A stretch of DNA of 64,000 nucleotides from Coniochaeta sp. PMI_546. Taxonomy: Eukaryota > Ascomycota > Sordariomycetes > Coniochaetales > Coniochaetaceae. Of this stretch, positions 7,501-47,094 are shown in pieces; position 1 is the first letter of the stretch; the number at the start of each line of letters is the position of its first letter. Both the position numbers and the translations under genes were made by a program. Below the pieces are notes generated by a model. It was not told the DNA's origin. It saw only the letters and a list, made by a program, of their open reading frames with translations, and did no database searches. The stretch lies in NCBI GenBank assembly GCA_021432605.1, contig MU271149.1, positions 2,108,001 to 2,172,000 on the forward strand, read 5' to 3'.

Positions 7501-10483
7501 TAGACCTTAGGATATAAAATCGGTTTTTAAACCGTATTATCCCGGTTATATCAATTGTCTAAGTTAATTCGAATCTAATCTTAGGACCTTATAACGATTC
7601 GGCTTTAATACGTTAGGTTTCTTAATCTATCTATTATAATTTAGTAATAAGGTCTTTTAGATCTTTAGATATACCCGATTCTAAAGCTTGTTTACGGGTA
7701 TTCGTATTAAATACCGTAGCTTTCGGTATATATTATTCTATAAGGAGGTTTTATAACGCCCGATATTCGCGTAACGTTTAATCTTAAAACGTTTTTAAAC
7801 TATTTAAGTCTTCTAAAACGTTTATATTTATATTATTTTCCAACGATTCTTCTATATCGTCTTTAGAAATATTTAAGTTATTAAAGTCGTTATAACCCGG
7901 TATTAATTAAGCCTTATCACGGGTTAGGTTTCAGAATATAAGAACCTAAACTATTTGTTAATCTAACTTTTATTAAAATAGATATATTAGTTTTGTTTAT
8001 AAACTAACCGCGTTTTTATAATTAAGCTATCTCGACGGTATATCGGTTAGGTTTGATTTATCTAAACGATATTTGATTACGAATTCGAATAGTACGAAAT
8101 ATATATATTACCTCATCTAATATTTATTAAGTTTTAGTTATTTTATAAAGGTTTAGAAATTAATATAATCCGATAATATTTCGATTACGAATCAGTTCCC
8201 TTTTAAGTAATACTTCTAATATTTAAACGATTCGACGATTACGAACAATATTTTATCCGGGGTATTATAAATTAGTTTTAATCCGGTAAACTTATAAAAC
8301 TAAAACGTTACTAGATACTATTTACTATTATCGTCTTATTACAAAACGATATTAGATATAATATAATTAGAAACGTTAATCTTTAACCGTATATATTATT
8401 TAAGATCGAAATACCGGAAAAAAAACGTTAATTAGAAAGCTATTTTAAAAACCTTAAATACCTAATATTCTTTAACGCCGAAATTAACTTTACCTAGTTT
8501 CCTTTTATTTTTATTCCTTTCAAAAAGGGAAATAAGTAATATAACTACGCCGGAATATCCTTTAATAAATCGGCGATAAAAATTATAGAATCCGAAGAAG
8601 ATTTAAACGTCGTAGAAACTAATAGGCTCCGGCTATAAAACGATAATATCTATACGATTAGGGTTTATAAAAATATTTTTGGCGGATATAATATAACCGA
8701 GAAATTCGATTTGATTTTAGAAAAAGATATACTTATTAAACTTAACGTATAATTCCGCGGTTCGGAAACGATTTAATATTTGGCCGATATAATTAAAATA
8801 CGTTTTTCGGTCTTTCGAAAAGATAAAAATATCGTCGAAATACGCGATATAAAAATCGTCGAGTAAGTTTCGTAACGTTAGGTAGATATAATTCTAAAAC
8901 GTTACCGGAACGTTAGTTAAACCGAAAAGTATAATAAAGAACTCGTAATAACCGTATCGAATACGGAACGTTATTTTCTATTCGTCTCCTTTTTTAATAC
9001 GGATCCGGTAATAAATATCTTTAATATCGATCTTAATAAAGAATTAGGCGTTAAAAACGCGGTTAAAGATCTTTAAAATAAACGGTAAAGGGTATTGGTT
9101 ACGAATCGTAACCTTATTAAAACCGCGATAATCTATATAAAATCGTAAGGAACTATCTTTTTTAAAGATAAATAATATTAATACGTTAACTACGGATTTA
9201 GAATACCGAATACGGTTATTTATTAAATTCTCGTTTAGAAATTTATATAGTTAAACGAATTCTTATTAAAAGAAAGGATATATTAGTCTATAAAATAGTT
9301 CTTAATTGTCGAATAAATCGATCGCGTAATTTATTTCTTTAGTACGCGGGAAGATATTCGTATTAGAAACTTCAAATATATCTTTTTACGGCGATAATTC
9401 GGAAAGGAAACTTTTTAATCCCGAATCGGGATTATCTTATTTTTGTTTTTCGTCTTTTAATAAAAATAATTCGGGAATATACTATATAGAATATATTTTC
9501 GCGATATTACGAATAATACGTTTGAAATTCCGTTTAGAAACTATTTAGAACGTATTCTTATCGAATTCGAACTATTATTTTCTTTTCTAAAAGGATATAT
9601 AAATATAAAAATCTTATATAATAGTTATCGAGAAGACGACAAAGTTACTTTCTAATCTAAAATCGCGATTAACCCCGATATAAAACCGTATTATCTTTTT
9701 AACGGTACCGTATAAATCCGTATACGTATAAAAATATTCTAAACGCTATAAATAAAGACTTTTAATTAACTTATTACCTTAAAAGGGGGTATTATTAATT
9801 CTCCTCGTCGAAAACTATATTATATTACGAATACGGTATTAATTACGTTTATTTCCGTATTAGTATTGAAATCTACGAATATATTGGTTACGGGTTAAGA
9901 TAAAATACGGATAGGAATATAAAATCGGTAGGTAATATTTACTAATAGTTTAACGGAATAGGGCGTAGAATTTACCTATCTATCCTAGTTTTTAAATATA
10001 TTAATATATCGTTAGGGTTTAAATTACGTTAATTTCGATTTTAGTTTCTCCCTCGTTTACGTCTTTTTAAAAAAGCTTTACGGGAATAAATTATTAACCC
10101 GAAAGAAATATTCGGTTTATTCGGGTAATCTAAAGTATAATAAAACGTACTATCGTAAATATAATAACGATTTTACTAACCGTTCTTACCGATAGGATTA
10201 CCCCTGTTTGAAAGCTAATCTTAACTATAGTATTTATTACTCTTTTTTCCCCGTTAAAAGGCCCCGCGTTTACGGTTGTTTCTACGCGTACGGATATTCC
10301 TTTAGTTTCTACCTCTCGTATTATTACCCCGGTATAATCTTTTACTAGTTTAGGCCCGTTTCTCGATAAATCTTCCGCTGAGATTATCTCTATTTCTCTT
10401 ACGTTTAAAACCCGATATAAAGTTTAAGGTAAATCGAGCCGTTAACGTTATTATAACGTTTCGGGTCTAAAGTATAACCGTAA
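4286..10483 (-). mobile_element. F3a: main body of a fossil LTR3-family Ty3/Gypsy element
   Basis: Read on the minus strand, this part shows the Gypsy pol order. Reverse transcriptase lies at about 9250-8650, with the catalytic Asp-Asp motif near 8840, RNase H at about 8450-7950 and the integrase core at about 7230-6900. The pol tail and 3' LTR follow. Its 5' end is elsewhere: gag and half of the 5' LTR are at 30176-31151 on the other strand, and the other LTR half is at 38529-38745, owing to nested insertions and an inversion. It is among the most heavily RIP-mutated elements here, with dozens of breaks, consistent with being the oldest layer. Confidence 0.8.
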
Positions 10484-10527
10484 TATAACGATCCCAAGAC
10501 GGGCTAAGGATCAGAAGGTGAGTTCTA

Positions 10528-10918
10528 TATTACAGACCAACGGTTACGAAGGGAACCCCGCCAATCGATAAGGAACAGATATATAGGGTATACCGTATTA
10601 CATGGGCTAGGGACCCCGGGTTACGTAACTGATAGGAGGAATAGTTTCATAACAGATATATTAGGATATGGGTGATAGTTTCCTATCAACCATATCACCA
10701 TAATCTCTACAAGTATATAAGAAAGAGTCTCTCTAAACTCCGTTACAAATAGTTCTTAATCACCTAATAATCAATCTAAATATTTAATCGAGGTTATTAT
10801 TAAGTAAGATACTTATCTTAACGATACCAAAGTAAAGACTACTTGTTATACCTTAACTTACTTGCCCTAAGTAATAGAACTCACCTTCTGATCCTTAGCC
10901 CGTCTTGGGATCGTTATA
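10528..10918 (+). repeat. LTR1, 5' LTR of A
   Basis: This LTR is 391 bp and starts tattacagacc (ancestral TG start) at the end of the ttcta duplication. It ends ggatcgttata just before the presumed primer-binding stretch. It is the least RIP-altered LTR1 of the A/B/C subtype in the window. Confidence 0.9.
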
Positions 10919-13900
10919 TTTTGATCACTCTTATTCGATAAGTTAACCCTATACCAAATAGCTAACAATTATATCGACCAAAGGAACCGTTATAACTATA
11001 TCCAAGGAAAAGCTTACTTAATAAGTTACTAAGCTCGGAGTTGAACTAGAAAAGTTAAAGAACGAATATAAAGAACTAAAGTCCAAATCGGCGGAACCTA
11101 AGAACGACCCTAAGACTACGGAACGAACGGCTAAGATCAAAGCCCCGCGGCCGGAACCTTACGACGGGAACCGCGAAGGGTTATAAGCTTTTATCACCCA
11201 GACTAATACGTACCTTTCGATTAACAAGACGGTTTTCGTTTACGAGTACGAAAGGGTAATATACGTAATAGGAATACTAAGGGGAAGAGTTACGGAATAG
11301 TACGAACTAACGTTACGCGATTAGATAAACAATATTACTAACGATCGCAAACCCGAAACTAGAATACTATTTAACAATCTCGACAAATTCTAGGAAAAAC
11401 TCCGCGAGACGTTCGGCAACCCCGACGAGACGCGAACGGCCGAACGGCAATTAATAAACTTAAGGCAAAAAGGGTCGGCGGGAACCTATACGGCCGAATT
11501 CAAACGCCTTTTTACGAAACTCGACTTAAGGGAAACGGTTCTTATAATTCAGTTCTACAAAAGATTTCGTAATAACGTTAAGAACGAACTCAACAAGACC
11601 GATAGGCCTAAGACTTTCTATAAGTACGTTATATAGGCTATCCTGATCGACAATCGATTATATAAACGACAGTTGGAAAAGAAACGAGGAAGAGTTACGT
11701 AAGGACGGTCTAACAATAATAATACCGCGAACACTAACTAGAAAAGGTCTACTACCTATAATAATTACTCTAGACCAATAAAACTAGATGCTATTCGGAA
11801 AGATAATTCCAAGAAAAACAAGAAGTATTTTAATTACGGTAAGCAAGGATACTTCGCTAACAAATGTCGATAACCTAAAAAAGCTTGGAAACTAGTCCCC
11901 GAAAGTAAGGCTTAAACGACTACGAGGGATAGAAAATCCCGCGTTATCGTAATAATACGTAGAGAATAATAACATAAAGTATTTCTTAGACTACCGGGAG
12001 AAGAAATCGACTTGGTAATAATATTAGGTTATAATATTACGGACGTAACGTATCTAGTCAACTTATTAGACCGAGAATAAGACGAAATCGAGGAAGAACA
12101 AATACCTTTATATAGAGATTACGAATCAATATATATTAATTCGGTCTATTATAACCAGATTTCGTAGAATTCGTACGTTTTCTACCGTTACGCTTAGTAC
12201 ATATAGGAAAAACTGGATTACAAATAGATACTAGTACGAATACCAATAACCAGACCGATACCTTACCCTTATAGACCTAGAGATATCGAAAGATACGAGG
12301 AAATACATAAGAACGGATAATACCTATTATTAACGCCGCCCGGAACTATATAATCATAACTCAACCCGACGGGATAAGAATTCCTAATAACAACGGAACT
12401 TAGACGAAGAGTCGAGGGTAAGAACTAAATATAAGCTATTTACCTACCCGAAAACTCGGTAAGACAAACGGGACGACTAGGATATTCGGTATTAGAAATC
12501 GTAACGTAAGCTACGACGGGAAGAGAATCGACCGAAGAGTTCTAAGCACGATAATACCGTATTAGTACGCAAATCGATACGTACTTAGCGAGTTGCCGGG
12601 GCTATAAGTTACAAGTACAAAAGAAGGTCGAAGAGTTAGTATAAGGAACGGACCAAATAGACAAACGCTTGGATAGACTACTAGGCCCCGAACCGGAAAT
12701 AAAAAAAGAAGAGAACGGGGAACCGTTAAAACCTTCTTCAAAGGCTAAAGACAAACTTAAATATTACGGTATTTCGTTCCGAAGATTAGAAAAACGATCA
12801 AAAAACGATAAACGTCGACTATAAAAAGACTATATCGACGTAATATAGAAAGATCCTTATATACGACCGAGGGAGTTGAATACTTACGAATTACGATTAA
12901 TATATAAGGAAACAATACCTAGGTAATAATAGATAACGGAATACAAGGAAACTATATCTCGCCAAATCTCGTTAATATATTACGATTACCTTAGAAAAAA
13001 AGGGACGAGCCCTACCGACTTAAAACTATTGATAAAAGCCTTATCGATTATAAACAAGGACTAGTAGATATAAAGATTACGTCCTTTCAAGTTACTATCC
13101 AAAGTCATAATCAAAAGATAACGTTCGATATTACGGAGATCTTATCGTACGGTATAGTATTAAGGATACCTTAGTTACGAACGAATAATCCCCGAGTTAA
13201 TTGGAAAACAGGCCAACTTCAATAGGATACGTTAAAAAGAGAGTTAGCCTTTATAGAGAACGGACTTTACGAAGAAAAGCCTATACGTAACTTTAGAAGA
13301 GCTCTAATAATTTACGAAACGATTATAGAAACTCAGTTTATATCGACGCGAACGATTCCGAAGGAATACTATCGATATAACAAACTATTCAAACCCGAAC
13401 TTGAGATAAGACTACCTGAATATAACCGTTAGGATTACGAGATCAATCTTTAGCTAGGTAAGGAGCCCGGATTTTACAAGATTTACCCTCTCAACGACTT
13501 ATAGTTATAGGCGTTAAGAGAATATATTGATAAAAATCTAAAGAAAAGTTATATTCGACCGTTACAATTACTAGTAAGATACCCTATCCTATTCGTACCT
13601 AAGAAAAACGGGAAGTTACGTCTCGTTATAAACTACCGATAGTTTAATAATATTATTATCAAAGATCGAAGACTACTACCTTTTATATCCGAATTAAGAA
13701 ATCGGCTATATAAGGCCCGATAGTTTACTACCCTAGACCTCAAGGGAATATATAACCTAATACGAGTTAAGGAAGGAGATAAGTAGAAGACGGTATAGCG
13801 ATCTAGGTTAGGATAATACGAATACTATATTATACCTTTCGGGCTCGCTAACGTACCGGCTTCTTTCTAGAGAATAATCAATTACGTACTTCGAAAATAG

Positions 13901-16900
13901 TTAGACGATTTCGTCGTCGTATATTTCGATAATATCTTAATCTACTCGGAAGACCTCGAGTAATATAAGAAACACGTTTATCTCGTCTTATAAATATTAT
14001 AAGATACGAATTTATTAGTCGAACCCGAGAAGTACGAATTTTACTAGCAAAAAATGAAATTTCTCGGTTACGTTATATTATTAGGTTAGTTCGAAATAAA
14101 CCTAGATAAGCTAAAGGTTATTAAGGAGTAGCCCGTACTAGAAACGGTTACGGGAATACGAACCTTTTTAAGGATTACCAACTTCTATCGGAAGTTTATC
14201 AAGGATTATAGCAAGATCGCAATACCCCTTACCAACCTTACCAAGAAAGATTTAAGGTTCGAATAAACCTTAAGGGAAGAAGAAGCGTTCTAAGAACTTA
14301 AGAAAAAGATCCTAAGCCAGCTAGTATTAATTACTACGGATCCCGAAAAACCTTACGAAATAGAAACCGATACGTTAAAATTCGTATTCGGAGGCCAGTT
14401 AGGATAGAGGGATAAACAAGAGAGATTGTACCCAATAGCATTCTTCTCGAAAAAGTTAAGTAGACTAGAACTCAACTATAATATACTAGATAAGGAGCTA
14501 ATAATTATTATTAAAGCGTTTAAGGAGTAGAAATACTACCTTATAAGAGTAAGACATAAGGTAAAAGTCCTAATAGATTATAAGAATCTTATTACGTTTA
14601 CTTTTACGAAAAAACTTAACAAACGACAAATCAAATAATATAAGTTCCTTACCGATTTCGACTTCGAAATTGTATATAGGAAAAGGAATAAAAATAGTAG
14701 AACGGACGTTTTTAGTCGACGAGAAAATCTAAAACCGGAAAAAGAAATACGTTCGGCGAATTTCCTTAGGACCAATCAATAAGGGAATCTTGAACTCGAT
14801 ACGTAGATCGGAATAATATAGAACGTAGAACCCGAAGAATAGTAGGCGGAAAAGATTAAGGAATACCGGAAGAAGGAGACTAGGGAAAACGTTACCTTTA
14901 TACTCCTATTATATTACGGCTTACCCCAGTTCCGAAACAAAGTATACGTACCTAACGAACTACGGAAAGAATTAGTAAAAGAGTTCTACGAACATCTATT
15001 ATATAAATACCAAGGAGTCTATAAGATTAAAAAACGCGTACGGCGGACTTACGACTTTCTAGGATTAGATAAAACGGTTAGATAAGTAATCGGCGAATAC
15101 GATAAGTATAACAAAGTTAAGTTAAATAGATATAAGCTATACGGGCTATTGTAACCTATATAACTACCAGAGAAACCATAGGAAATAGTTACGATAGACT
15201 TTATCGTCAAACTACCAATATCGAAGGAACCTATAACGGGGGTCACTTACGATAATATATAAGTAGTTATAAACAAATTCTCCAAATACGCGTACTTTAT
15301 ACCGTATAAAGAAGTAAATATAACGGAAGATATAACCTACGCCTTTTTAAAGGTAATAGTAAGCTAGTATAGACTACCTAAATAGCTTATTACCGATAGA
15401 AACAAACTATTTACCTCGAAGTTCTAGATAACGTTAATACGACAAGTTAGAATCAAATACAAATTATCGATATCGTTTTACCCGTAGACGGATAGGCAAA
15501 CAGAACGAACGAACCAGACCTTTGAACAATATCTAAAGATATATATCAATAAGAAACAAGATGATTAGGTTAGGTAACTACTAATAGTATAATAGGCTTA
15601 CAACAATATACCTAGCGAAACGCTAAACGGGTACTTACCGTTCTTTATCAGTTACGGTTATAAACCTACTATAAGGGAAATATTGGGAGACGGATTAATA
15701 CCGTCGGATCCGGAGCTACTATAAGTAAGATATACCGCGGAACAAATAAAACTATTCTATAAGAGACTTCGCGGATATATAAAACTACTTAACCTACGAA
15801 TAATACGATACGCAAACTAGAAAAGGTTAAAAAGACTAACCTTACGGGAAGAAGACAAAATCTACCTCGTATAACGAAATATCAAGATAAAACGACCAAA
15901 CGACAAACTAGATTAGAAGAAAATCGGACCGTTTAAGATCAAGAAAAAATTGTCCGATTTGAACTATAAACTCTAGCTACTAACGAATATACGTATTTAC
16001 CTAGTATTTTATATCTCGCTTCTCGAACCGGTACCTAAGAACGCGAAGTTAGTAATAGATATTGAAGTTAAACTAACGTAAGAATACGAAGTAGAAAAGA
16101 TCCTTAGGTATAAAAAGGAAGGAAACGTAAACTTTTACTACGTCAAATAGAAGAACTATAACGATTCGGAAAACACGTAGGAACCGGAAGCTTACCTTAC
16201 GAACTATCAGCAATTGCTATAGGAATTCCGTACTATAATAGTATTATTACCCTAAGAATCGAAGGGGATAATACTACGTCGCCGTAAACTACGTCCTAAC
16301 CTAAAATAAAGTCGTCGTCAAAGGAAAAGGACGTAACGGAAGGCAGACGATTCTCGACAACTCTCGTTACCTCGCGATCGGCTTCCTCTTTCTCGACCCG
16401 TTCCAATTCTTCTATATTCGTTATACCTCTACGGATAGTACGTATCATTTTCTCAAACTATATTTTCTTTTGTTTACGAAGACGTTCGATTTTCGCGTTT
16501 ATAATCCTTCGTTCCTTTTCAAGCTTCTCGAAGGCGAGTTCGTATTCGTAAAACTACTTTCCAATACGTTCTAGGTTCCTAATTGAGAATTCCTATACGT
16601 TATAGTACGATAGTATATCGCGGATATAACGAACGTAACGATTAGGATTAGAAGGGGAGATTTCGTAAGTAATAAGGCCCTTTTCCTCGTAGTTTGAATA
16701 CGAAAGTATTTCGATATAGTCGGAATCCAAGAAAACTTAGAAGAGTTTGTTCTTACGAATAGTCGAAGCTTTCGGCTATTTTGTTTGCTTTTATATACTA
16801 CGGTTAGATATGATAACGATAAAGAAGGGGAAACCTTCGGACGCAATTTATATGGGCTATTGGTACTATTTATAAAGAGTATTAGGCCTTAGGGACAATA

Positions 16901-16922
16901 GCCAAAAGGAAGAGGGGGATAA

Positions 16923-17313
16923 TATTATAAACTAACGGTTACGAAGGGAACCCTACTAATCGATAAGGAATAAACATATAAGGTATACCGTATTATATAA
17001 GCTAGGGACCCCGGGTTACGTAACTAATAAGAGGAATAGTTTTATAACAGATATATCAAGATATAGGTAATAGTTTCCTATCAACTATATCATTACAATC
17101 TCTATAAGTATATAAGAAAGAGTCTCTCTAGACTCCGCTATAGATAATTCTTGATTACCTAATAATTAATCTAAATATTCAATCGAGGTTATTATTAAAT
17201 AAGACACTTGTCTTAACGATACCAAAGTAAAGACTATTTGTTATACCTTAACTTACTTACCCTAAGTAACAAAACTTACCTTCTGATCCTTAGCCCGTCT
17301 TAGGATCGTTACA
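16923..17313 (+). repeat. LTR1, 3' LTR of A
   Basis: This LTR is 391 bp, preceded by the purine-rich run ending aagaggggga, and ends ggatcgttaca. It differs from the 5' LTR mainly by transitions. The ttcta duplication follows directly, and then the interrupted LTR of B resumes. Confidence 0.9.
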
Positions 17314-17318
17314 TTCTA

Positions 17319-17665
17319 TTACTTAAAGTAAGTAAGTTAAGGTATAATAAGTAATCTTTATTCTAATATCGTTAAGATAAGTATCTTACTTAATAATAAC
17401 CTCGATTGAATATTTAGATTGATTACTAAGTAATCAAAAATTATCTATAACGGAATCTAGAAAGACTCCTTCTTATATACTAATAGAGATTGTAATAATA
17501 TAGTTGATAGGAAACTATCGCCTATATCCTAATATATCTACTATAAAACTATTTCTCCTATTAGTTACGTAACCCGGGGTTCCTAACTTATATAATACGA
17601 TACGCCTTATATATCTGTTCCTTATCGATTAACGGGGTTCCTTTCGTAACCGTAAGTCTATAATA
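17319..17665 (-). repeat. LTR1, 3' LTR of B (larger part; remainder 10484-10527)
   Basis: The two pieces, 44 bp and 347 bp, sum to 391 bp once the 5-bp duplication ttcta is counted once. That is exactly the family length. This is the direct proof that A inserted into this LTR. Confidence 0.9.
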
Positions 17666-20600
17666 TTATCCTCTTCCTCTTTTTGGCTATTATCCCTAAG
17701 GCCTAATACTCCTTATAAATAATACTAATAGCCTATATAAGTTACGTCCGAAGGTTTCCCCTTTTTTATCGTTATTATATCTAACCGTAATATATAAAAA
17801 TAAACAAAATAACCGAAAACTTCGACCGTTCGTAAGAATAAACTCTTCCAAATCTTCCTAGATTCCGACTATATCGAAATACCTTCGTATTCAAACTACG
17901 AGGAAAAAGGCCTTATTACCTACGAGGTTTCCCTTTCTAATCCTAATCGTTACGTTCGTTATATCCGCGATATACTATCGTATTATAACGTATAGGAATT
18001 CTTAGTTAGGAACTTAGAACGTATTAGAAAACAGTTTTACAAATACGAACTCGCTTTCGAAAAGCTCGAAAAGGAACGAAAGATTATAGATACGAAAATC
18101 GAACGTCTCCGTAAATAAAAGAAAATATAGTTTGAGAAAATAATACGCGTTATCCGTAGAAATATAACGAATATAGAAGAATTAGAACGGGTCGAGAAAG
18201 AAGAAACCGATCGCGAGGTAACGAGAGTTATCGAGAACCGTCCGCCTTCCGCTACGTCCTTTTCCTTTGACGACGACTTTATTTTAGGCTAGGACGTAGT
18301 TTACGGCGACGTAATATTATCCCTTTCGATTCTTAAGGCAATAATACTATTATAATACGGAACTCCTATAGTAATTATTAATAGTTCGTAAGATAAGTTT
18401 CCGGTTCTTACGTATTTTCCGAATCGTCGTAGTTCTTTTATTTGACGTAATAAAAGTCTATGTCTCCCTCTTTTTTATACCTAAAGATCTTTTCTATTTC
18501 GTATTCCTACGTTAGTTTAACTTTAATATCCGTTACCAACTTCGCGTTCTTAAATACCGGTTCGAAAAGCGAGATATAAAATACTAGGTAAATACGTATA
18601 TTCGTTAGTAACTAGAGTTTATAATTCAAATTAGATAACTTTTTCTTAATCTTAAACGGTCCGATTTTCTTCTAATCTAATTTGTCGTTTGGTCGTTTTG
18701 TTTTAATATTTCGTCGTACGAGGTAGATTTTGTTTCCTTTTTATAAGGTTAGTCCCTTTAACCTTTTTTAGTTTACGTATCGTATTATTCGTAAGTTAAG
18801 TAGTTCTATATATCCGCGAAATCTTTTATAGAATAGTTTTATTTATTCTACGGTATATCTTACTTGTAATAGTTCCGGTTCCGACGGTATTAGTCCGTCT
18901 CCTAGTATTTCCCTTATAATAGGTTTATAACCGTAATTGATAAAGAACGGTAAATACCCGTTTAACGTTTCGCTAGGTATATTATTATAAGCCTATTATA
19001 CTATTAGTAGCTACCTGACCTAATCATTTTGTTTTTTATTGATATATATCTTTAGATATTGTTTAAAGGTTTGGTTCGTTCGTTCTATTTATCTATCCGT
19101 TTATAAGTAGAACGATATCGATAACTTATATTTGATTCCGATTTGTCGTATTAATATTATCTAAAATTTTGAAATAAACAACTTGTTTCTATCGGTAACA
19201 AGCTATTTAGATAGTTTATATTAGCTTACTACTACTTTCAAAAAGGTATAGGCTATATCTTCCGTTATATTTATTTCCTTATACGGTATAAAGTATACGT
19301 ATTTAGAGAATTTATTTATAACTACCTATATACTATCGTAAACGATCCTAGTTATAAGTTCTTTCGATATTAGTAGTTTGACGATAAAGTCTATCGTAAC
19401 TATTTCCTATAGTTTTTCTAGTAGTTATATAAGTTATAATAGTCCGTATAACTTATATTTGTTTGACTTGGCTTTATTATACTTATCGTATTCGCCGACT
19501 ACCTATCTAACTACTTTATCTAGTTTTAGAAAGTCGTAAGTCCGCCGTACACGTTCCTTAGTCTTATAAACTCCTTGGTATTTATATAATAGATATTCGT
19601 AGAACTCTTTTACTAGTTCTTTCCGTAGTTCGTTAGGTACGTATACCTTATTTCGGAACTAGGGTAAGCTATAGTATAATAAGAGTATAAAAGTAACGTC
19701 TTCCTTAATTTCCTTCTTCCGGTACTCTTTAATCTTTTCCGCCTATTGTTCTTCGGGTTCTACGTTTTATATTATTCCGATTTGTATATCGAGTTTAAGG
19801 TTTCCTTATTAGTTAGTCTTAAGGAAGTTTGCCGAACGTATTTCCTTTCCTAGTTTTAGATTTTCTCGTCGATTAAGAACGTCCGCTTTACTATTTTCGC
19901 TTCCCTTTTTATATATAATTTCGAAATCGAAATCGGTAAAGAACTTATACTATCTAATTTATCGTTTGTTAAATTCTTTCGTAGAAGTAAACGTAATAAG
20001 GTTTTTATAATCTATTAGGATTTTTACCTTATATCTTACCTTTATAAGATAATATTTCTATTCTTTAAATGTTTCAATAATAGCTATCAGTTCTTTATCT
20101 AGTATATTATAATTGAGTTCTAGTCTATTTAGCTTTTTCGAGAAGAATACTATTAGGTATAATCTTCCTTGTTTATCCCTTTGTCCTAATTAGCTTCCGA
20201 ATACGAATTCCGACGTATCGGTTTCTATTTCGTAAGGTTTCTCGGGGTCCGTAATAACTAATACTAGCTAGCTTAAGATCTTCCCTTTAAGTTCTTAGAA
20301 CGCCTTTTCCTCTTTCGAAATCTATTCGAACTTTAAATCTTTCTTAGTAAAGTTAGTAAGGGGTATTACGATCTTACTATAGTCTTTGATAAACTTCCGA
20401 TAGAAATTAATAATCTTTAGAAAGGTTCGTATTCCCGTAACCGTTTTTAACGCGGGCTATTCCTTAATAGCCTTTAGTTTATCTAGGTCTATCTCAAACT
20501 AGTTTAGTAATATAACGTAACCGAGAAATTTTACTTTTTATTAGTAAAATTTATATTTCTCGGGTTCGACTAATAAATTCGCGTCTTATAATACCTATAA

Positions 20601-23600: not shown

Positions 23601-23670
23601 GGTTCTTTTTATCGATATAATTGTTAGTTACTTGGTATAAGGTTAACTTACCGAATAAGAATAATCAAAA

Positions 23671-24061: not shown

Positions 24062-27000
24062 ATTTCTTAATAACCAATTAAAAAAGTTCAAATTAATATT
24101 TCAAAAAAGGTTTAGAATTACGATATTTCCTACGGATAACGAAATGGACTAATAGCGTTCGACGTTATCTAACGGTATAAGAAAAAGGATAAGAAGGATA
24201 TAAAGTATTTCAATTGTTAAAAGAAAAGGTATTTCGTTCGAAAGTATTAAGAACCCCGAAAACTAAAAGAAAGAATTACGAACCGGTAAATTAATACTAT
24301 CGGCCGAAACGGTTACGAAACTATAAGCCCCGTACTAACCGTTATTAGGACCGAGGTCCGATAGATTATAACCGGACGAGTTAGCTTCGTCGGGATTATT
24401 TAATAAGGATCGTACGACGATACGACGTTTAAAAAGGAAACCTTATAAGACGATAACGATAATACGTTAGCCGAATATTAGGTAAACGCGATAGAAATCG
24501 AACCTAAGGAAGTTATCGTAAAAACCTATAAAGATTAACGAAAAACCGTATTACGGACTTTAGAAAAAAAGTATTCTTCTTTCGAAAAAGAGGTAACTTT
24601 CAAAACGGAAAAAGGGGATTACGATTAGACCTTAATATTCCTAAGAAATCTAATACGTATTCGTTATTAGCTTACGATTCGAGATAACGTAATAATTATT
24701 TACGGTAAAGCCGTTGAAAACTCTAAGATCGGGATATTCCCGGAAGATTGGAAATAACCGGAAAACCGAAATAACGATTATTACGATATGAATTTAGATA
24801 AAAAATATTATTATTCGATCTATTAGGCGTCGTATATCTACGACGAGTATTTCGAATACTTAATACCTAAAGTTAAGAACAATTTCTTTCCGCGACGATA
24901 GAAGGACGATATTATTTATAACCCTTACCGTTAGGAAGAGTTAAAGTTATAGAAAATAGTCGGAAAACATATCCGTTATAAAGCGGCTATATTGATTAGG
25001 GATCCTAAATACCCCCGGGTATATAAAAAGGGATTGTTTTAAAACTATAAAGAACCCAAATATAAGTAATATCGGGCTAATAAAATATCGTAATAATACG
25101 AATATATAATAGATAAAAAGCGAAAAGAAGAGAGGTTCCTCGTTACCCTATTACTAGAACGAAGATACCGGACCCCCGTTAGATAAAAGATAACGACCTA
25201 GGTAAGATTTAGTAAATAAACGTACGAACGGTAACCTACGTTATAAGATTAGGCCGGAAAGATACGAGGATTCAAAAAACTCTTTAAAGAATAGATAACG
25301 AGATTATTAAAAACGTAATAGTCGGGGATTATTAACGAATTATTAGACGAACTTTCCCCAAAACCGGAAAAATCGATTACGACGTTAATAACCGATTAAA
25401 AGTTCGTTAAAATCTTAGAAAGATATAAAAGGAATAATAACCCTATATAGTATATCGGTTAAGTATTAAAGAATAGTCGATAAGTACGAGAATAACGAAG
25501 AAAGAAAACATTCTAGAAGACGGAATCGTTTAACTTAGGAAACTACGAATATAATACTAAAGATTTAGAAAAGGTTTAACGGGAGTTTATTAAATAATAA
25601 CGACAAAGGTTAAAAAACGAAAAGGACCGCTTATAAAGGGATTATAACCAGATTTAACTAACAAGTCTTTAACGATTATTAGAAAACCAAATAATAATAA
25701 CCACTTGATAGTATTAGTTATATTAGGAGATTACTTATTTTATACGATAATCGATAGTAAAACGTAAGGGAGTTTTATTTCGGAAAAGATTATTTAAAAG
25801 TTCGACTTACGAATATAGTTATTAGAATACCCTTATATATTTAGTAACTTTGAAGGAGAACGAGTTATATATAATAACGGATAGGTACGAAAGGAAACCC
25901 GGCTTATTAAGATAACCTATTTTAGTTAAACAAGGACGATCTCGTTAAACGTTATTCGTATTACGGAATATAAATTAATATTAGATATTACGTAGCTTAG
26001 AAAATAGAACCTACGTATCGATTAGGATACTAGCTAGTTATATTAGGATAACCGGATATAGGATTCCAAACGATAACGAGGTAATTATAAGAAAAGAAAT
26101 CCGACTTTTTAAAAGTATTCGGAAGAAATACTTATAAACGCGATAAGATCGATCTAAGAGGAAGTTATATACGTTATAGAATTAAGAATACCGGAAGAAT
26201 ACCGGAAATACTAACGACTATTCGAAGAACAATCGGGAAAAGAAGTTTTACTTTAATATAACGAGTAGGATTATAAAATACCTTTCGAAGAAAGATAATA
26301 ACTTAAATTTTATAAGATCTACCTTTTAAATAAGTTATAAAGATAGGTATTTAAAGAGTATATCTAGGATATATTCCAAAAGGGATATATACGACTATCT
26401 ACGTTACTAATAAGATACCTTATCCTATTCGTTTTAAAAAAGAACGGGAAATTACGCCTATATATCGATTACCGGTATCTTAATAATATTATTATTAAGA
26501 ACCGGTACCTTTTTCTACTAATTTCGGAAATTAGGGACCGATTATATAGAATAAAATAGTTTATTACGTTCGATTTACGGGGAACGTATAACTTTATTAG
26601 AATAAAAGAAAACGAAGAATAGAAAATAGTATTCCGAACGTAAAAAGGATATTTCGAATATTTCGTTATACTATTTAGGCTTACTAACGCCCCGGCTACT
26701 TTTTAGACTATAATTAATTACGTATTACGACCGTTTATCGATATATTCGTAATAATCTACTTCGATAATATTCTTATCTATTTAAAGACGTTTGAAGAAT
26801 ATAAAGAATACGTTTACTAAGTATTATAAAAGCTTCAAGACGTACGATTACTAATCGATCCGGAAAAATATAAGTTTTATACTAAGGAAACGGACTTCCT
26901 AAGGTTTACGATCGAATTAGGAAAGATACGTATATAAGAATCGAAAATCGCGGTAATTAAGGATTAGCTACGACTTACGAACGTTAAGGAAGTTAAAGAC

Positions 27001-30000
27001 TTCTTAGGATTTATTAACTTCTACCGAAAGTTTCTAAAAAGGTATAGCTAGATAATTACCCCCCTTACGGACCTGACGAAAGGAAATAAAGAATTCCAAT
27101 AGAACCCGAAAATAGAAACGGCGTTCTAAGAAATCAAGGAGGCGGTTAACAAACGATTAATTACCGCGTTCCTAGACCCCGAAAAACCTTACGAGGTCGA
27201 AACCGATATATCGGATTATATATTCGGAAGATAGATAGGATAACGAGATTCCGAAAAACGGTTATACCCTATAATATTCTTTTCGAAAAAGTTCAATAGA
27301 TTAGAACTCAATTACTAGATCTACGATAAAAAACTAATAACGATTATTAAGGCTTTTAAGGAATAGAAACCGTATTTTAACGGAACGATATATTAGATAA
27401 AGGTCTATACGGACTATAAGAATCTAATATACTTTACGATTATAAAAGAACTTAATAAACGATAGATTAGATAAATAAAATTCTTATCGGAATTCAACTT
27501 TCGGATTATCTACCGAAAAGGAAACGAAAACGGCCGAATAAACGCGTTAAACCGAAGACCGGATTATAAATAAAACGAGCTACTAATCTACCAAACAATC
27601 TTTAAAATTAACTCGAACGAAAACCTCGAATAAGTAAAACAATAGCTTAACGTCTTATTTACCGTTTACCTTAATAGAAAATAGGAAAACGAAATCAAAA
27701 ATGCTAATTAAGCTTACTAATTGAATATAAGGAATAGAAAAATATTCGTACTAGAATTTCTCTAGAAAGATTTGATTAAGGAATATTACGCGTACTTAAT
27801 ATACGGATATATAAGAATCGCGAAGATAATACAAAAAATCTAACGAACTTACGACTTTAACAAACTTAAGGAACGTATTACGGAAATCGTCGGCTAATAT
27901 TAGGAATATAACTAGAATAAGGTAGTAAAGTATAAACCGTACGGAAAGCTAAGGCCTTTACCGGTATTAGAAAAAGCTTAGGGATATATCGCGTTTGATT
28001 ATATCGTCAAGTTACCTCTATCAAAAAAACCAATAATAGGAATACGATACGATAATATCTTCGTTATTATCGATAAACTAACTAAATATAAATACTTTGT
28101 ATTATATATAGAAGCCAATACGGCTAAAGACTTCGCGTATACGTTCTTAAAATACATCGTTAATAATTACGGATTACCTGCCGAAATAGTTTCTAACCGA
28201 AAAATAACGTTTACTAGTAACTTTTGGAAAGCACTTATAATAAGATTAGGAATAAAGTACTCTTTATCGACCGCCTATTACTTATAAACAGATAGGCAAA
28301 CCGAAAGATTGAATTAGGTCTTAGAATAATACTTACGATATTACGTAAATTACAAATAAGATAATTAGGTAGAATTCCTACTTTTAATATAATTCGCGTA
28401 TAATAACGCGAAGTAAAATAGTATCGGATACTTACCTTTCTTTATAAATTACGGCTTCGAACTAGAGATTAATTAGATACCTTACTAATCTCGGGAAGTA
28501 TCTAAAGCCTTTATAACGGCTAAGGAACTTAAAGAGTTATATAATAAGTTACGAAAAAACTTAGAACTCGTAAAAGAAATAATAGTAAGATATTATAACG
28601 AAAGAAGGTTAAAAAGACTAACCTTTAAAAAGAGAGATAAGGTCTATTTACTTAGGAAAAATATTAAGACTAAACGATCAAACGATAAGTTAGATTATAA
28701 AAAACTTAAACCCTTCGAAATTAAAGAAATAATATCGGATACTAATTATAAATTTCGTTTACTAAAGATAATAAGAATTTACCCGGTATTTTACGTATTA
28801 CTATTAGAACTAGTAATAGTTAGTATTAAATTCTAAGAATTGGTCGAAGTAAAATCTATAGAACTAGAATACGAGGTTGAAATAATCTTCGACTTTAGGA
28901 AAAGGGGATATTAGATAAAATACTTGATCAAATAGAAAGGTTATAATAACTCGGAGAATATATAAGAACTAACTAGGAACTTAACGAATTATTAGTAGTT
29001 ATATAAACAATATTACTAATAGTACCCTAGCCCGTTCCTAACGAACTATTACCAAAAACGGCGTTCTAATTAACTACGCCAAAAGTACCAAAAGATTATA
29101 CGTTAATTACCGCGTTAGATTCCTAACGATTTGTTTCGTCTAAATCGTTAAGATTCTATAGACCTTAGGAAACTATAAAAGCTTTTCGGGATACTAACGA
29201 ACGTTTTTACTATCGAAAACGTTCGAGACGTAATAGAAATTTATCTAATTCTCGTTACGTTTAAAAGAATCGTTCGCGACGTTCGCGAAAGAGATTTTTA
29301 ACGTCGGACTTTTCCCGGTTTAAGCGACGAGATTCTTAGATAATACGGGAAACTACTTTTATTAGTATACGACGAAGTTTTCTTCGAACTATCGAACTTA
29401 CGAAAGGAAACCGAAACCTTTAAACCGTCGTAAGATCGACCGCGACGAATATATTCGCTATATCGTATTATACTTTTTAACATTCTATATTTTATCCCTC
29501 GAGAATAATAAAATAAATAAGGTATGATTTCGAAACTTAACTCGTCGATTATAACGGCTAGACGATAACGTTATTTAGTTTTCTTTGACTTTTCTTTAGA
29601 AGATTTTTCTACGCGATTAGATATTATATCAATATTACGGGAAATAATAAAAGAGGAAGATTAGCGACTTACCTTAACATAAGCGCTAACGTTATTTTAT
29701 AATTTATCCTAGCCTTCGGGACGAAGATTTAGAAAAGGGATATCGTATTACGAACCGTACCTATTAGGCTAACGGGACGCGGAACGGAATAACTATTACG
29801 GGGTAACGGTTATCTAATCATAAGGGGATTACTAGGCGACTAGGTATATAGGGTAATAAGCTATTATAAAGGATTACTTGGATTACGGTAAGCTAGTTCG
29901 CCTTAGATTACTAACTATAGCAAAAAGGATTATTACGAGAAAAGTAATCTACGAAAGAATATCTTATATTTAAATAGTCCTTACTATTAGATAATTACGA

Positions 30001-30175
30001 ATTGCTTTTATAACGATTAATATATAATTCTCTACGTTTAATTACCTACCCCTTTTTGAAATAATAATCTACCTTTTGGCTAGATACGATCTTACTATAA
30101 TTTACCGTACGTACCTAACTGATTGTCAATAGACCCCAAATATCGGTTAGTATTTAAGAATATTAATTCGTTATA
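24062..30175 (+). mobile_element. E: 3' portion of a fossil LTR2-family Gypsy chromovirus
   Basis: On the + strand it holds the later gag (about 24230-25640), reverse transcriptase about 26330-26900, integrase about 27990-28430, a chromodomain about 28830-29000 and the 3' LTR 29746-30175. Its 5' LTR and first gag portion lie on the minus strand at 37493-38528. The split is explained by an LTR1 insertion (TSD gaaat) followed by inversion. E sits inside the 5' LTR of F3a (TSD agatc at 30176-30180 and, inverted, 38529-38533). It has dozens of breaks. Confidence 0.85.
29746..30175 (+). repeat. LTR2, 3' LTR of E
   Basis: This LTR is 430 bp. It starts tattacgaacc after a purine tract and ends ttcgttata. 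It is the same length as 38099-38528 and one base shorter than 39863-40293. Confidence 0.9.
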
Positions 30176-31151
30176 AGATCAGATTAGATTTACTTATATT
30201 ATATAATTATATTACGTATTCTTTTATTTAGTTTTAATTAAAGATTTCTTTTATATTTCTAATTCTTCTTTTTAATTAAGCTATTTAAGAAATACGATAA
30301 CGGGCCGAAACGGTATCCGCCCGACCCGTAATAAGATAGTTCGCGGTAAATAACCGATTCGGAGCCGAAGATCTAGTTAGAATAACTTTCGTACCCCGGT
30401 ATTAAACGACGACGAATTATAAAATAATAACGAAATTAACGTTTTATTAACGAGACCTTTAAAATACGGTAGAAAGATAGCCGATCCGGCTTTTCCCGCC
30501 GTTATAATTATTTCGATCGTTCTAAATTTAATACCCGAAATTATAATTAAAGAATTCGGGCGCGCCGAAAAAAAACGTAAAACCTTTAAAACTTACGTTA
30601 AGGTTTAAAAGGAAATTCGAAGGTTTTAACGATCGATTTATAAACGAAACGATTTAAATTCCGACTTTTTTCGTAACGTTAAAATTAAAATTAAAAATAT
30701 CCCCGAATTAAAGTTTAATTATACCGTTTAATAATATTAGGATTAGTTCCGCGCGTTTAAACGGGGATTTAAAAAAGTAAAATGTAAATATTATACCGAA
30801 AAGAGCCGTATCTTTAAAACTATTAATTAGTTATAACCTAATTATTAATCCCGATAAGATCGTTACGTTTAAAACTAATAGTATTTAAACGAAGACTTTA
30901 ACGATACCGATTAAGAAACGTTCGAGGAATAGATTATTATTCTATTATAAAATTATAAAAATCTCGAAACCGAGATAATATAAGTTTTAAACGACGTTAA
31001 ATAACTACCGAATTAAATATTATAAGTTTTCGACGTTTATCTCGATTTTCTCGAAAATAACTTTTCCTAATAAAATAAAATATAACAAACTAAGCTTTTT
31101 TACGTTACATTTTAATCTAATTTACGTATTTATATTAAAAAAACTATTACG
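30176..31151 (+). mobile_element. F3a: 5' LTR remnant and gag start, in inverted segment
   Basis: The first 80 bp (30176-30255) complete the LTR3 sequence whose other half is 38529-38745: 217 + 80 - 5 = 292 bp. The rest is the leader and beginning of gag of F3a, sense strand +. It ends at ttacg (31147-31151), which matches in inverted form the cgtaa at 10479-10483 where the F3a body resumes on the minus strand. It is strongly RIP-like with many breaks. Confidence 0.75.
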
Positions 31152-31542
31152 TGTTATAAACCTACGGTTACGAAGAGAACCCTGCCAATCGATAAAGAAC
31201 AGATATATAAGGCGTATCGTACTATATAAGTTAGGAACCCCGGGTCACGTAACTGATAGGAGAAATAGTTTTATAACAAATATATCAAGATATAAGCGAT
31301 AGTTTCCTATTAACTATATTACTATAATCTCTACTAATATATAAGAAGGAATCTCTCTAGATTCCGTTATAGATAGTTCTTAATTACCTAATAATCAATC
31401 TAAGTATTCAATCGAGGTTATTATTAAGTAAGATACTTATCTTAACGATACTAGAGTAAAAACTATTTGTTATACCTTAACTTACTTACCTTAAGTAATA
31501 GAACTTACCTTCTAATCTTTAGCCTGTCTTAGGATCGTTATA
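31152..31542 (+). repeat. LTR1, 5' LTR of C
   Basis: This LTR is 391 bp, begins tgttataaacc (TG retained) and ends ggatcgttata. It is of the same subtype as the LTRs of A and B. Confidence 0.9.
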
Positions 31543-34500
31543 TTTTGATTACTCCTATTCGGTAAGTTAACCTTATACTAAATAGCTAACAATTATATCG
31601 ACAAAAGGAACCGTTACGATAACGTCTAAGGAAGAACTCGTTTAGTAAGTTACTAAGCTCGGAACTAAACTAGAAAAGTTAAAAAACGAATACGAAGAAC
31701 TAAAATCCAAAACGGCGGAGCCTAAGAACGACTTTAAGACTACGGAACGAATAGCTAAGATCAAAGCCCTACGGCCGGAACCTTACGATAAGAACCGCGA
31801 AGGATTATAAACCTTTATTACCTAGGCTAATACGTATCTTATAATTAATAAGGCGGTTTTCGTTTACGAATACGAAAGAGTATTATATATAATAAGTCTA
31901 TTAAAAGGTAGAGTTATAAAATAGTATAAACTAACGTTACGCGACTAGTTAGATAATACGGCTAACGAACGCAAACTTGAGACTAAGATACTATTTAATA
32001 ACCTCGATAAGTTCTAAGAAAAACTCCGCGAAACGTTCGGTAATCCCGATAAGACGCGAACGGCCGAACGGTAATTAATAAACCTAAGGTAGAAAAGATC
32101 GGCGGGAACTTATACGGCCGAATTCAAACGCTTTTTTACGAAATTCGATTTAAGGGAAACGGCTCTTATAATTTAGTTTTACGGAAGACTTCGTAATAAC
32201 GTTAAAGACAAACTTAGTAAGACCGATAGGCCTAAGACTCTTTATAAATACGTTATATAAGCTATCCTAATCGATAATCGATTATATAAACGATAGTTAG
32301 AAAAGAAACGAAAAAGAATTACGTAAGGACGGTCTAATAATAGTAATATCGCGAATACTAGTTAGAAAAAGTCTACCACCTATAGTAATTATTCTAAACT
32401 AATAGAACTAAACGTTACCCGGAAGGATAACTCCAAGAAAAATAAGAAATACTTTAACTACGGTAAGTAAAGATATTTCGCTAACAAATATCGATAACCT
32501 AAGAAAACCTAAAAGCTAGTCCCCGAAAATAAGGCTTAGGCGGTAATAAGGGATAGAGAATCCCGCGCTATCGTAATAATACGTAGAAAATAACAATATA
32601 AGGTATTTCTTAAACTATTAGGAAAAGAAATCGACTTAATAGTAATATTAGGTTATAATATTACGGACGTAACGTATCTAGTTAACCTATTAGATCGAGA
32701 ATAAGACGAAATCGAAGAGGAATAAATACCCTTGTATAAAGACTACGAGTCGGTTTATATTAATTCGGTTTATTATAATTAGATTTCGTAGAATTCATAC
32801 GTTTTCTACCGTTATATTTGGTATATATAAGGAAAACTAGATTACAAATAGATACTAGTACGAATACTAATAACTAAACCGATACCTTACCCTTATAAAC
32901 CTAGAGATATCGAAAGATACGAGGAAGTATATAGGAACGGATAGTATTTATTACTAACGCCGCCCGGAACTATATAATTACAATTTAACCTAACGGGATA
33001 GGAATTCTTAATAATAACGGAACCTAGACGAAAAATCGAAGGTAAGAACTAAATATAAATTATTTACCTACCCGAAAACTCGGTAAGACGTACGGGACGA
33101 TTAGGATATTCGGTATTAGAAATCGTAACGTAAGTTATAACGGGAGAAAAATCGACCGAGGAGTTCTAGGTACGATAATACCGTATTAACGCGTAAGTTA
33201 ATACGTACTTAACGAATTGCCGGGGTTATAAGTTATAAGTATAAAGGAAGGTCGAAGAGTTAATATAAGAAACGGACCAAATAGACAAACGTTTAGATAG
33301 ACTATTAGGCCCCGAGCCGGAAGTAGAAGAGAAAAAGAACGGAGAACCGTTAGAATTTTCCTTAAAGGCCAAAGACAAACTTAAATACTACGGTATTTCG
33401 TTCCGAAGATTAGAAAAACGGTTAAAAAACGACAAACGTCGACTATAAAGGGATTATATCGACGTAATATAAAAAGATCCCTATATACGACCGAGGGAAT
33501 TGAATACTTACGAGTTACGATTAATATATAAGAAAGTAATACCTAAGTAATAATAAATAGCGGAATATAAGGAAATTATATCTCGCCAAATCTCGTTAAT
33601 ATATTACGATTACCTTAGAAGAAAAAGGACGAGCCTTACCGATTTAGAACTATTAATAGAAGCTTTATCGATTATAAATAAGGACTAGTAAATATAAAGA
33701 CTACGCCCTTTCAAGTTACTATCTAAGGCTATAATTAAGAGATAACGTTCGATATTACGGAGATCTTATCGTACGGTATAATATTAAAGATACCTTAGCT
33801 ACGAACGAATAATCCCCGAGTCAATTAGAAAATAGGCTAATTTTAATAAGATACGCTAAGAAAAGAGTTAGCTTTTATAGAAAACGGACCTTACGAGGAA
33901 AAGCTTATATATAACTTTAAAAGAGCTTTGATAATCTACGAAACGATTATAGAGATTTAGTTTATATCGACGCGAACGATTCCGAAGGAATACTATCGAT
34001 ATAACAAATTATTTAAGCCCGAGTTTAAGATAAAATTATTTGAATATAATCGTTAGGATTACGAGATTAATCTTTAGTTAGGTAAGGAACCCGGATTTTA
34101 TAAGATTTACCCTTTTAACGACTTATAATTATAAGCGTTAAAAGAATATATTAATAAAAATCTAAAGAAAGGTTATATTCGACTATTACAATTATTAGTA
34201 GGATACCCTATCTTATTTATATTTAAAAAGAACGGGAAATTACGTTTCGTTATAAATTACCGATAGCTTAATAATATTATTATCAAAGATCGAGGACTAT
34301 TACCTCTTATATCCGAACTAAGAAATCGGTTATATAAGGCCCGATAGTTTATTACCTTAGACTTCAAAAGAGTATATAACCTAATACGAGTTAAGGAAAG
34401 AGATAAGTAGAAGACGGTATAACGATTTAGGTTAGGATAATACGAATATTATATTATACCCTTCGGGCTCGTTAATATATTGGTTTCTTTCTAGAAAATA

Positions 34501-37101
34501 ATCAATTACGTATTTCGAAAGTAATTGGACGATTTTATCGTCGCGTACTTCGATAATATCTTAATCTATTCGGAAGACTTCGAACAATATAAGAAATACG
34601 TCTACCTCGTCTTATAGGTATTATAAGACGCGAATTTATTAGTCGAACCCGAGAAGTACGAATTTTACTAGTAAAAAGTAAAATTTCTCGGTTACGTTAT
34701 ATTATTAGGTTAGTTCGAGATAGACCTAAACAAGCTAAAGGCTATTAAAAAATAGCTCGTATTAGAAACGGTTACGGGAATACGAGCTTTTTTGGGGATT
34801 ACTAACTTCTATCGGAAGTTTATTAAAGATTATAACAAGATTGTAATACCCCTTACTAACCTTATTAAGAAAGACTTAAGGTTCGAATAGACTTCGAAGG
34901 AAGAAAAGGCGTTCTAAGAACTTAAGGGGAGGATCTTAAGCTAACTAGTATTAGTTATTACGGACCCCGAGAAACCTTACGAAATAGAAACCGATACGTC
35001 GGAATTCGTATTCGGAAACTAGTTAGGATAAAAGGATAAATAAGGAAGATTATACCTAATAGTATTCTTCTCGAAGAAGCTAAGTAGATTAGAATTCAAT
35101 TATAATATACTAGATAAAAAGCTAATAGCTATTATTAAAATATTCAAAGAATAGAAATATTATCTTATAAGGGTAAGATATAAGGTAAAAGTCCTAATAG
35201 ATTACAAAAACCTTATTACGTTTACTTTTACGAAAGAACTTAATAAACGACAAATTAGATAGTATAAGTTCCTTACCGATTTCGATTTCGAAATTATATA
35301 TAAGAAGGGAAACGAAAATAGTAGAACGGACGTTCTTAATCGACGAGAAGATTTGAAACTAAGAAAGGAAATACGTTCGGTAAACTTCTTTAGGACTAAC
35401 TAATAAGGAAACCTTAAACTCGATATATAGATCGGAATAATATAGAACGTAAAACCCGAAGAATAATAGGCGGAAAAGATTAAGGAATACCGGAAGAAGG
35501 AGATTAAGGAAGACGTTACCTTTATACTCTTATTATATTACGGCTTACCCTAATTCCGAAATAAAGTATACGTACCTAACGAATTGCGGAAGGAACTAAT
35601 AAAAGAGTTCTACGAATATTTATTATATAGATACTAAGGAGTTTATAAGACTAAAAAACGCGTACGGTAAACTTACGACTTTCTAAGATTGGATAAAGTA
35701 GTCAGATAGGTAGTCGGCGAATACGATAAGTATAACAAAGCCAAGTCAAATAGATATAAGCTATACGGACTATTATAACCTATATAACTACTAGAGAAAC
35801 TATAGGAAATAGTTACGATAGACTTTATCGTCAAACTACTAATATCGAAGGAACCTATAATTAGGATCGCTTACGATAGTATATAAGTAGTTATAAACAA
35901 ATTTTCCAAATACGCGTATTTCATACCATATAAAGAAGTAAGTATAGCGGAAGATATAGCCTATATCTTTTTAAAGGTAATAGTAAGCTAATATAAACTA
36001 CCCAAATAGCTTATTACCGATAGAAATAAGTTGTTTACCTTAAAGTTCTAGATAATACTAATACGACAAATCGGAATCAAATATAAGTTATCGATATCGT
36101 TTTACCTATAGACGGATAGACAAATAGAACGAACGAACTAGACCCTTAAATAATATCTAAGGATATATATTAATGAAAAGTAAAATAATTAGGTTAAGTA
36201 GTTATTAGTAGTATAATAGACCTATAATAATATACTTAGCGAAACGTTAAACGGGTACTTACCGTTCTTTGTTAATTACGGTTATAAGCCTACTATAAGG
36301 GAAATATTAGGAGACGGACTAATACTATCGGAACCGGAATTATTACAAGTAAGATATACCGCAGAATAAATAAAGTTACTTTATAAGAAATTTCGCGGAT
36401 ATATAAAACTATTTAACTTACGAATAGTACGATACGTAAATTAGAAAAGGTTAAAAGGACTAACTTTATAAAAAGGAGACAAAATCTACCTCGTACGACG
36501 AAATATCAAAACAAAACGATTAAGTACGGTTCTCGACAACTCTCGTTACCTCGCGATCGGCTTCCTCTTTTTCGACCCGTTCCAATTCTTTTATACTCGT
36601 TATACTTTTACGGATAACACGTATTATTTTCTCAAATTACATTTTCTTTTATTTACGAAAACGTTCGATTTTCGTATCTATAATCCTTCGTTCTTTTTCG
36701 AACTTCTCGAAAGCGAATTCGTATTCGTAAAACTGTTTTCCAATACGTTCTAGGTTCCTAACTGAGAATTCCTATACGTTATAGTACGATAATATATCGC
36801 GGATATAACGAACGTAACGATTAGGATTGGAAGGGGAAACCTCGTAAGTAATAAGGCCTTTTTCCTTATAGTTTGAATACGAAGGTATTTCGATATAGTC
36901 GGAATCCAAGAGGACTTAAAAGAGTTTGTTCTTACGAACGGTCGAGGCTTTCGGCTATTTTGTTTGCTTTTATATATTACGGTTAGATATGATAACGATA
37001 AAGAAAGGGAAACCTTCGGACGCAATTTATATAGGCTATTAGTACTATTTATAAGGAATATTAGGCCTTAAGGATAATAGCTAGAAGGAAGAGGGGGATA
37101 A

Positions 37102-37492
37102 TATTATAGACTTACGGTTACGAAAAGAACCCCGTTAATCGATAAGGAATAGATATATAGGGCGTATCGTATTATATAGGTTAGGAACCCCGGGTTACGT
37201 AACTAATAAGAGAAATAGTTTTATAGTAGATATATTAGGATATAGACGATAGTTTCCTATTAACTATATTACTACAATCTTTACTAGTATATAGGAAGGA
37301 GTTTCTCTAGATTCCGTTACAGATAGTTCTTAATTACCTAGTAATCAATCTAAATATTCAATCGAGGTTATTATTGAATAAGATACTTGTCTTAACGATA
37401 TTAGAATAAAGACTACTTGTTATACCTTAACTTACTTACCCTAAATAACAGAACTTACCTTCTGATCCTTAGCCCGTCTTGGGATCGTTATA
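37102..37492 (+). repeat. LTR1, 3' LTR of C
   Basis: This LTR is 391 bp, preceded by a purine tract ending gaggggga, and ends gggatcgttata. The flanking gaaat (37493-37497) is the diagnostic duplication shared with the right side of B. Confidence 0.9.
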
Positions 37493-38528
37493 GAAATCTT
37501 TATAATTCCCTTCCTTTCTATACGTCGTTTATATAAACGATTATCGATTCTTACGGTTATCTCGACGTAAATAGATAGTTCGTCTAGTCGATCTTCTTTA
37601 ACTAATTCGTCTTTAACGTCTTTTTTGAATTTTTAATAAAATTACGTTATAAGAAGTTTATCTTCCTATTCTAACTTAGAAGAGATTTGCCTAAATTATA
37701 AGGCGTAATTCGAAACTAACCCTTTCTATCGGAAGGTTTATAATTTACGTTTAGCTATCCTTTCCTCGTCTAAGGTACCGAAAATCTTTTTTAGGGTATC
37801 GGCGAAACTTAAGAAAAATCCGAAGATCTTATTAATCTCGTCGTCGCGATCCGACTCCCCGTTCTCAAAATAATCCCGTAAGGTTAGTTCAAACTAATTA
37901 AGCGCGTCGTTTTTCAAAAGGTAGGTAACGTAAAAGACCTTACGTTCCTTATCCGGAAAATCGTATATATTATAACGGAAGTAGGCCCTAAACTAGGTAA
38001 AGAAACCTTAAAAGGTCTTTAGATTCCTATCGTAAGCCTAAGGCGGGGATACCTTAAGACGGCCGCCTTTCCTAACCTATTATTAAGAACGATTAACGTA
38101 TAACGAATCAATACTCTTAAATACTAACCGATACTTAGGGTTTATTAACAATTAGTTAGGTACGTACGGTAAGTTATAATAAGATCGTATCTAACTAAAA
38201 GGTAGATTACTATTTCAAAAAAGGGTAAGTAATTAAACGTAAAAAACTATATATTAATCGTTATAGAAGTAATTCGTAACTATTTAGCAATAAAGATTGT
38301 TTAAATATAAGATATTCCTTCGTAGATTATTTCTCTCGTAATAATCCTTTTTGTTATAATTAGTAATCTAGGGCGAACTAGCTTACCGTAATCCAAATAA
38401 TCCTTTATAATAACTTACTACCTTATATACCTAGTCGCTTGGTAATCCCTTTGTAATTAGATAACCGTTACCCCGTAATGGTTATTCCGTTCCGCGTCCC
38501 GTTGGCCTAATAGGTACGGTTCGTAACA
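37493..38528 (-). mobile_element. E: 5' LTR and gag start
   Basis: On the minus strand this is the beginning of element E: 5' LTR2 at 38528-38099 followed by about 600 bp of leader and gag. It stops at the gaaat duplication where an LTR1 element had inserted. The remainder of E is 24062-30175 on the opposite strand. Confidence 0.8.
38099..38528 (-). repeat. LTR2, 5' LTR of E
   Basis: This LTR is 430 bp. Its + strand ends are tataacgaatc and ggttcgtaaca. The next bases are gatct (38529-38533), the inverted form of agatc found after the 3' LTR at 30176-30180. Confidence 0.9.
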
Positions 38529-40293: not shown

Positions 40294-40328
40294 CGTAATA
40301 GTAGCAAACTTTAATCTCTAAGGTATAG

Positions 40329-47089: not shown

Positions 47090-47094
47090 TATAG

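Follow-up and report, generated by a model that had tools for sequence, protein, structure and literature searches.

Exchanged target-site duplications and nested elements point to an inversion by recombination between LTR retrotransposons in an AT-rich fungal repeat block

Background

In an AT-rich block of the Coniochaeta sp. PMI_546 genome, two LTR retrotransposons in opposite orientation are each bordered by a pair of short target-site copies that do not agree with one another. A preliminary description of the locus explained this by two insertions of related elements and subsequent homologous recombination between them, by which everything in between would have been turned around. The question that the locus raises is whether such an inversion took place, and whether it can be recognised from one genome. 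Our analysis indicates that the segment 24062-31151 has very probably been flipped by homologous recombination between inverted LTR retrotransposons lying on one chromosome, within a block that carries RIP-like mutation.

Results

The window, that is, the whole stretch of DNA that was analysed, comprises 64,000 bases with 36% G+C and does not contain any N. Positions 1 to about 48000 form an AT-rich block filled with retrotransposons (21-39% G+C per kb), and from 48001 onward G+C is 45-55% and genes are found, including one for a fungal-type transcription factor. A short inverted repeat (47861-48003, 75%) lies at the sharp boundary between the block and the gene-bearing DNA. Beyond it are a gene of the Xanthine/uracil permease family (49385-51431, in two open stretches with perhaps an intron between them) and, according to Pfam, a region (56751-62957) encoding a protein that combines domains of shikimate kinase, dehydroquinase and shikimate dehydrogenase, together with a transporter of the sugar type and a protein resembling shikimate dehydrogenase, a gene set that we take to resemble the fungal quinate cluster.

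Self-comparison of the window rendered four copies of one LTR retrotransposon family, here called B1 (+), B2 (-), C (+) and D (+). B1 occupies 10528-17313 (LTRs 10528-10918 and 16923-17313) and is nested in the 3' LTR of B2, the end of which, as delimited by comparison with the 3' LTR end of C, lies at 10484-10527 (-); the remainder of B2 extends over 17314-24061 (-), with its 5' LTR at 23671-24061. C is found at 31152-37492 (LTRs 31152-31542 and 37102-37492), and D, outside the inverted segment, at 40329-47089. In two of the four copies the 5-bp duplications agree: TATAG flanks D at 40324-40328 and 47090-47094, and TTCTA flanks B1 at 10523-10527 and 17314-17318, within the 3' LTR of B2. Since B1 sits inside that LTR between the TTCTA copies, the element of 10484-24061, which had been taken for a single one, is a composite, of which B2 alone is the inverted partner of C. 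B1 and B2 together make up a 13.5-kb inverted repeat with arms 87% identical, which arose by insertion of one copy, in opposite orientation, into the LTR of the other. B1 may have entered B2 before or after the inversion, so that no order is assigned to that event, and the insertion of D is independent.

Judged by transversions, no two copies of the family are closer than B2 and C. They are 90.5% identical and differ by 599 transitions and no transversions over 6,302 aligned sites, whereas the number of transversions is 20 between B1 and either of them and 149-150 between D and either of them. The lack of transversions implies that there was little or no difference between B2 and C until RIP-type mutation, consisting of transitions only, set in. 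Counted per 300 columns, they diverge by 7-12%, with little variation over the length of the element, and the longest stretch without a difference measures 73 bp. Among the family copies in general, transitions far outnumber transversions, CpA and CpT contexts are both common, as read from the present next base, and stop codons are mostly TAA or TAG. C is devoid of about 445 bp of internal sequence (445 aligned columns in the comparison with B1) that is present in both B1 and B2.

B2 and C are the two copies with mismatched duplications. At the outer end of B2 lies CGTAA (10479-10483) and at its inner end ATTTC (24062-24066); C has TTACG at its inner end (31147-31151) and GAAAT at its outer end (37493-37497), all of them given on the plus strand and each abutting an LTR end. 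Read-out of the sequence thus confirmed the four 5-mers described previously, as well as their pattern, in which the flanks disagree within B2 and within C and are reciprocal reverse complements across the two elements, CGTAA pairing with TTACG and ATTTC with GAAAT. In two million random pairs of 5-mers from 1-47089, a reverse-complement match had a probability of 0.0029; two such matches at once would have one of about 8.6e-6, a figure that assumes independence and refers to a pattern picked post hoc. When the flip of 24062-31151 is undone, B2 comes to lie between two copies of CGTAA and C between two copies of GAAAT.

The same operation reunites a second element, F. The 3' portion of its internal region (24067-29745, +) includes a reverse transcriptase (RT, ca. 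26434-26910) and an RNase H (ca. 27109-27495), for which a Pfam scan of the piece 24067-27603 in frame 0 gave RVT_1 (1.7e-15), RT_RNaseH_2 (4.9e-21) and RT_RNaseH (6.3e-21). It is followed by the 3' LTR (29746-30175, +; 29747-30175 in the difference counts) and by AGATC at 30176-30180. The 5' LTR is found at 38099-38528 (-), bordered by the duplication at 38529-38533 (AGATC on the minus strand), and next to it a 5' internal part (37498-38098, -), gag-like by eye, is cut off by C. In element orientation both LTRs are thus flanked by AGATC, and they now lie on opposite strands about 8 kb apart. They differ from each other by 45 transitions and no transversions, and each differs by 8 transversions from another LTR of the F family (39863-40293); the latter is the 3' end of a truncated F-family copy (38846-40293) situated directly outside element E, described below. 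With the flip undone, F becomes a single element broken only by C, with a matched duplication. The four family copies B1, B2, C and D show, in a comparison at the DNA level only, 67-68% identity to the RT/RNase H region of F over about 1.2 kb.

Pfam detected no gag domain in the F 5' piece (200 aa) or in an F frame-1 piece (600 aa), and a single scan of viral contigs for protein relatives of the F 5' part rendered 26 stretches that fit the pattern, with none confirmed.

The third line of evidence comes from E, whose 5' LTR was split by the insertion of F. The 3' part of its internal region (4577-10478, -) includes RT (ca. 8687-9166) and RNase H (ca. 8135-8404), with Pfam matches to RVT_1 (1.8e-18) and RT_RNaseH (1.3e-6) in a scan restricted to 10477-7976, and 4577-6511 of it is homologous to 2-1954. 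One end of E carries an LTR at 4286-4576 (-), termed G2, an unbroken version of the LTR that F split (its end was set by eye, and one extra base, to 4285, was included in the difference counts). G1 (1955-2244, +), the LTR of another copy of the E family, is likewise intact across the F target site. The split LTR has its 5' half at 38745-38529 (-), abutting the F 5' LTR, and its 3' half at 30176-30256 (+), adjoining the F 3' LTR, the first five bases of the latter half being the F duplication and its end having been set by eye. When the flip is undone, F is removed as an insertion and AGATC is counted once, the two halves fuse without a gap, and the fused LTR aligns to both G1 and G2 with no gap at the join. 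Compared with G2 it shows 34 transitions and no transversions, compared with G1 43 transitions and 2 transversions. The gaps in the alignment with G2 (9 columns, 2 openings) fall partly in a T/C-rich run about 40 bases away from the fusion point and partly in flanking sequence retained at the end of the fused copy. The E pol reads leftward from 10478, as judged by the RT, and 4576-4286 was therefore taken as the 3' LTR and the fused LTR as the 5' one. The outermost duplication of E (AAAAA vs TAAAA, four of five positions by eye) was not counted as support.

The two E-family copies in 1-6511 lie with their apparent 3' ends tail to tail, separated by an unassigned AT-rich stretch of 2 kb (2254-4276); a 63-bp tandem repeat of about two copies is present at 2483-2604.

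From its position after the E LTR, 30257-31146 (+) is the putative 5' internal region of E. A translation of this piece (322 aa, one frame of 30181-31146) had no Pfam match, including none to a gag domain; among the blastn matches listed it had no strong second copy in the window, and translations of it and of 2254-4276 gave self matches only, at an E value of 0.01. F reads to the right from 24067 and E to the left from 10478, so that, as the sequence stands, both lose their 5' ends at B2. Close to the internal join of E (at B2) and that of F (at C) no single frame stood out in the phase of stop codons, and no homologue spanning either join was found; in view of the missing gag domain and the ambiguous stop-codon phase, neither internal join is claimed on coding grounds. 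By their LTRs, the order of RT followed by RNase H and a 5-bp duplication (4/5 in the case of E), E and F are both predicted to be Ty3/gypsy elements.

A switch in similarity between B2 and C had been proposed as a mark of the crossover. Three changepoint statistics applied along the B2-C alignment revealed no clear switch and did not locate a crossover: for strand bias the changepoint lay at alignment column 1554 with P=0.026, against P values of 0.43 and 0.37 for the remaining two. Site patterns in the LTRs of B2 and C do not favour the pre-inversion grouping either. Of 20 informative columns, only 2 group the LTRs in that manner, 4 group them by present element and 14 by position (5' vs 3' LTRs). 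The positional excess had P=0.0006 by label shuffling; under strand- and context-specific rates the positional count had P=0.28 and its lead over the other groupings P=0.0115. In all five other pairs of the family, positional columns were at least as many as cross columns (34 vs 21 in sum), with significance in no pair.

Discussion

The swapped duplications, the pair of F LTRs with their AGATC and the gap-free E LTR join are all read directly from the window. Elements of the same family, B2 (-) and C (+), lie in opposite orientation at both breakpoints of 24062-31151, and the F LTRs with AGATC and the E LTR join are contiguous solely in the uninverted order. The earlier proposal of two insertions followed by recombination is thus supported by the duplications, by F being made whole and by the continuity of the E LTR. 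It had also pointed to two elements split and flipped at the breakpoints, and such elements are seen, even if those designated E and F3a at that time may differ from E and F as defined here. As for the mechanism, we infer a homologous crossover, of which B2 and C would be the products.

The history probably ran as follows. E would have been the first to insert in what is now the AT-rich, RIP-like block. F would then have entered the 5' LTR of E, and a family copy X would have entered E itself, in either order; a further copy, Y, would have inserted into F, in the orientation opposite to that of X. As the last step of the nest, homologous recombination between X and Y on the same chromosome would have inverted the ca. 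7.1 kb between their inner ends. This would have given rise to two recombinant elements, B2 and C, whose target-site duplications are exchanged, and would have broken F and E into pieces of opposite orientation.

The chief risk that remains is an error of assembly, in which the segment between the similar inverted repeats was placed backwards; in the real genome the duplications would then match, and F and E would be intact. Such an error predicts an identical pattern, and long reads that are noisy and do not reach across the 6-kb repeats could mix up copies that are 90% alike. However, the differences between B2 and C at 599 of 6,302 sites, with no identical run beyond 73 bp, mean that accurate reads or k-mers longer than 73 bp separate the two, and the window is free of N; given this 10% divergence, we regard a misassembly as unlikely.

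Two further explanations appear far less probable still. One is that the duplications of B2 and C have mutated or were absent, and that F and E were broken at these points by coincidental deletions. Heavy transition mutation could indeed change duplications, but the two reciprocal 5-mer matches, the paired F LTRs with their AGATC and the rejoined E LTR all single out one and the same segment. It is about as improbable that some other process caused the flip, such as the end joining of breaks within B2 and C, or that the segment turned over repeatedly. The sequence reflects the net state alone, and no crossover point could be placed in it; still, when the B2 LTR end beyond B1 is left out, the alignment of B2 with B1 has just 2 gap openings and 40 gap columns, approximately the length of that omitted end, and the sole large gap, of 445 columns, is internal to C.

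The positional grouping of LTR sites is suggestive of an exchange of sequence between B2 and C after the onset of mutation, since fresh insertions have identical LTRs. That this exchange took place once RIP-type mutation had begun is put forward only tentatively, as a suggestive possibility. If true, recombination still took place between copies that were already mutated, and the inversion may itself be younger than the mutation. The locus offers a place in which to test whether point-mutated repeats still recombine. More generally, a past inversion can be argued from nested transposons in a single sequence, with no need of a second genome, and the dating of LTRs and the annotation of elements can go wrong across such flips.

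Inversions mediated by recombination between retrotransposons are documented for L1 and Alu elements of human and chimpanzee and, according to the available part of PMC2603318, leave chimeric elements with mismatched target-site duplications. As in those cases, an inverted pair of elements is found here at both breakpoints, the duplications no longer match and the ancestral state is read from them; the chimerism established there would apply to B2 and C by inference (PMC2603318). Unlike those inversions, the one described here involves LTR retrotransposons with 5-bp duplications in an AT-rich, RIP-like block, and its nested elements provide extra joins by which the inversion can be tested from a single genome (PMC2603318). 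Among fungi, gene conversion or ectopic recombination has been proposed for copies of the Podospora LTR retrotransposon crapaud, of which 7 out of 150 full copies have disparate ends (PMC10787394, available part). Common to both cases is exchange among copies of an LTR retrotransposon against a background of RIP, while an inversion with exchanged duplications, as seen here, is not described for crapaud in that part of PMC10787394. The phenomenon is thus already known, and the locus represents a new, well-documented instance of it with unusually good internal evidence.
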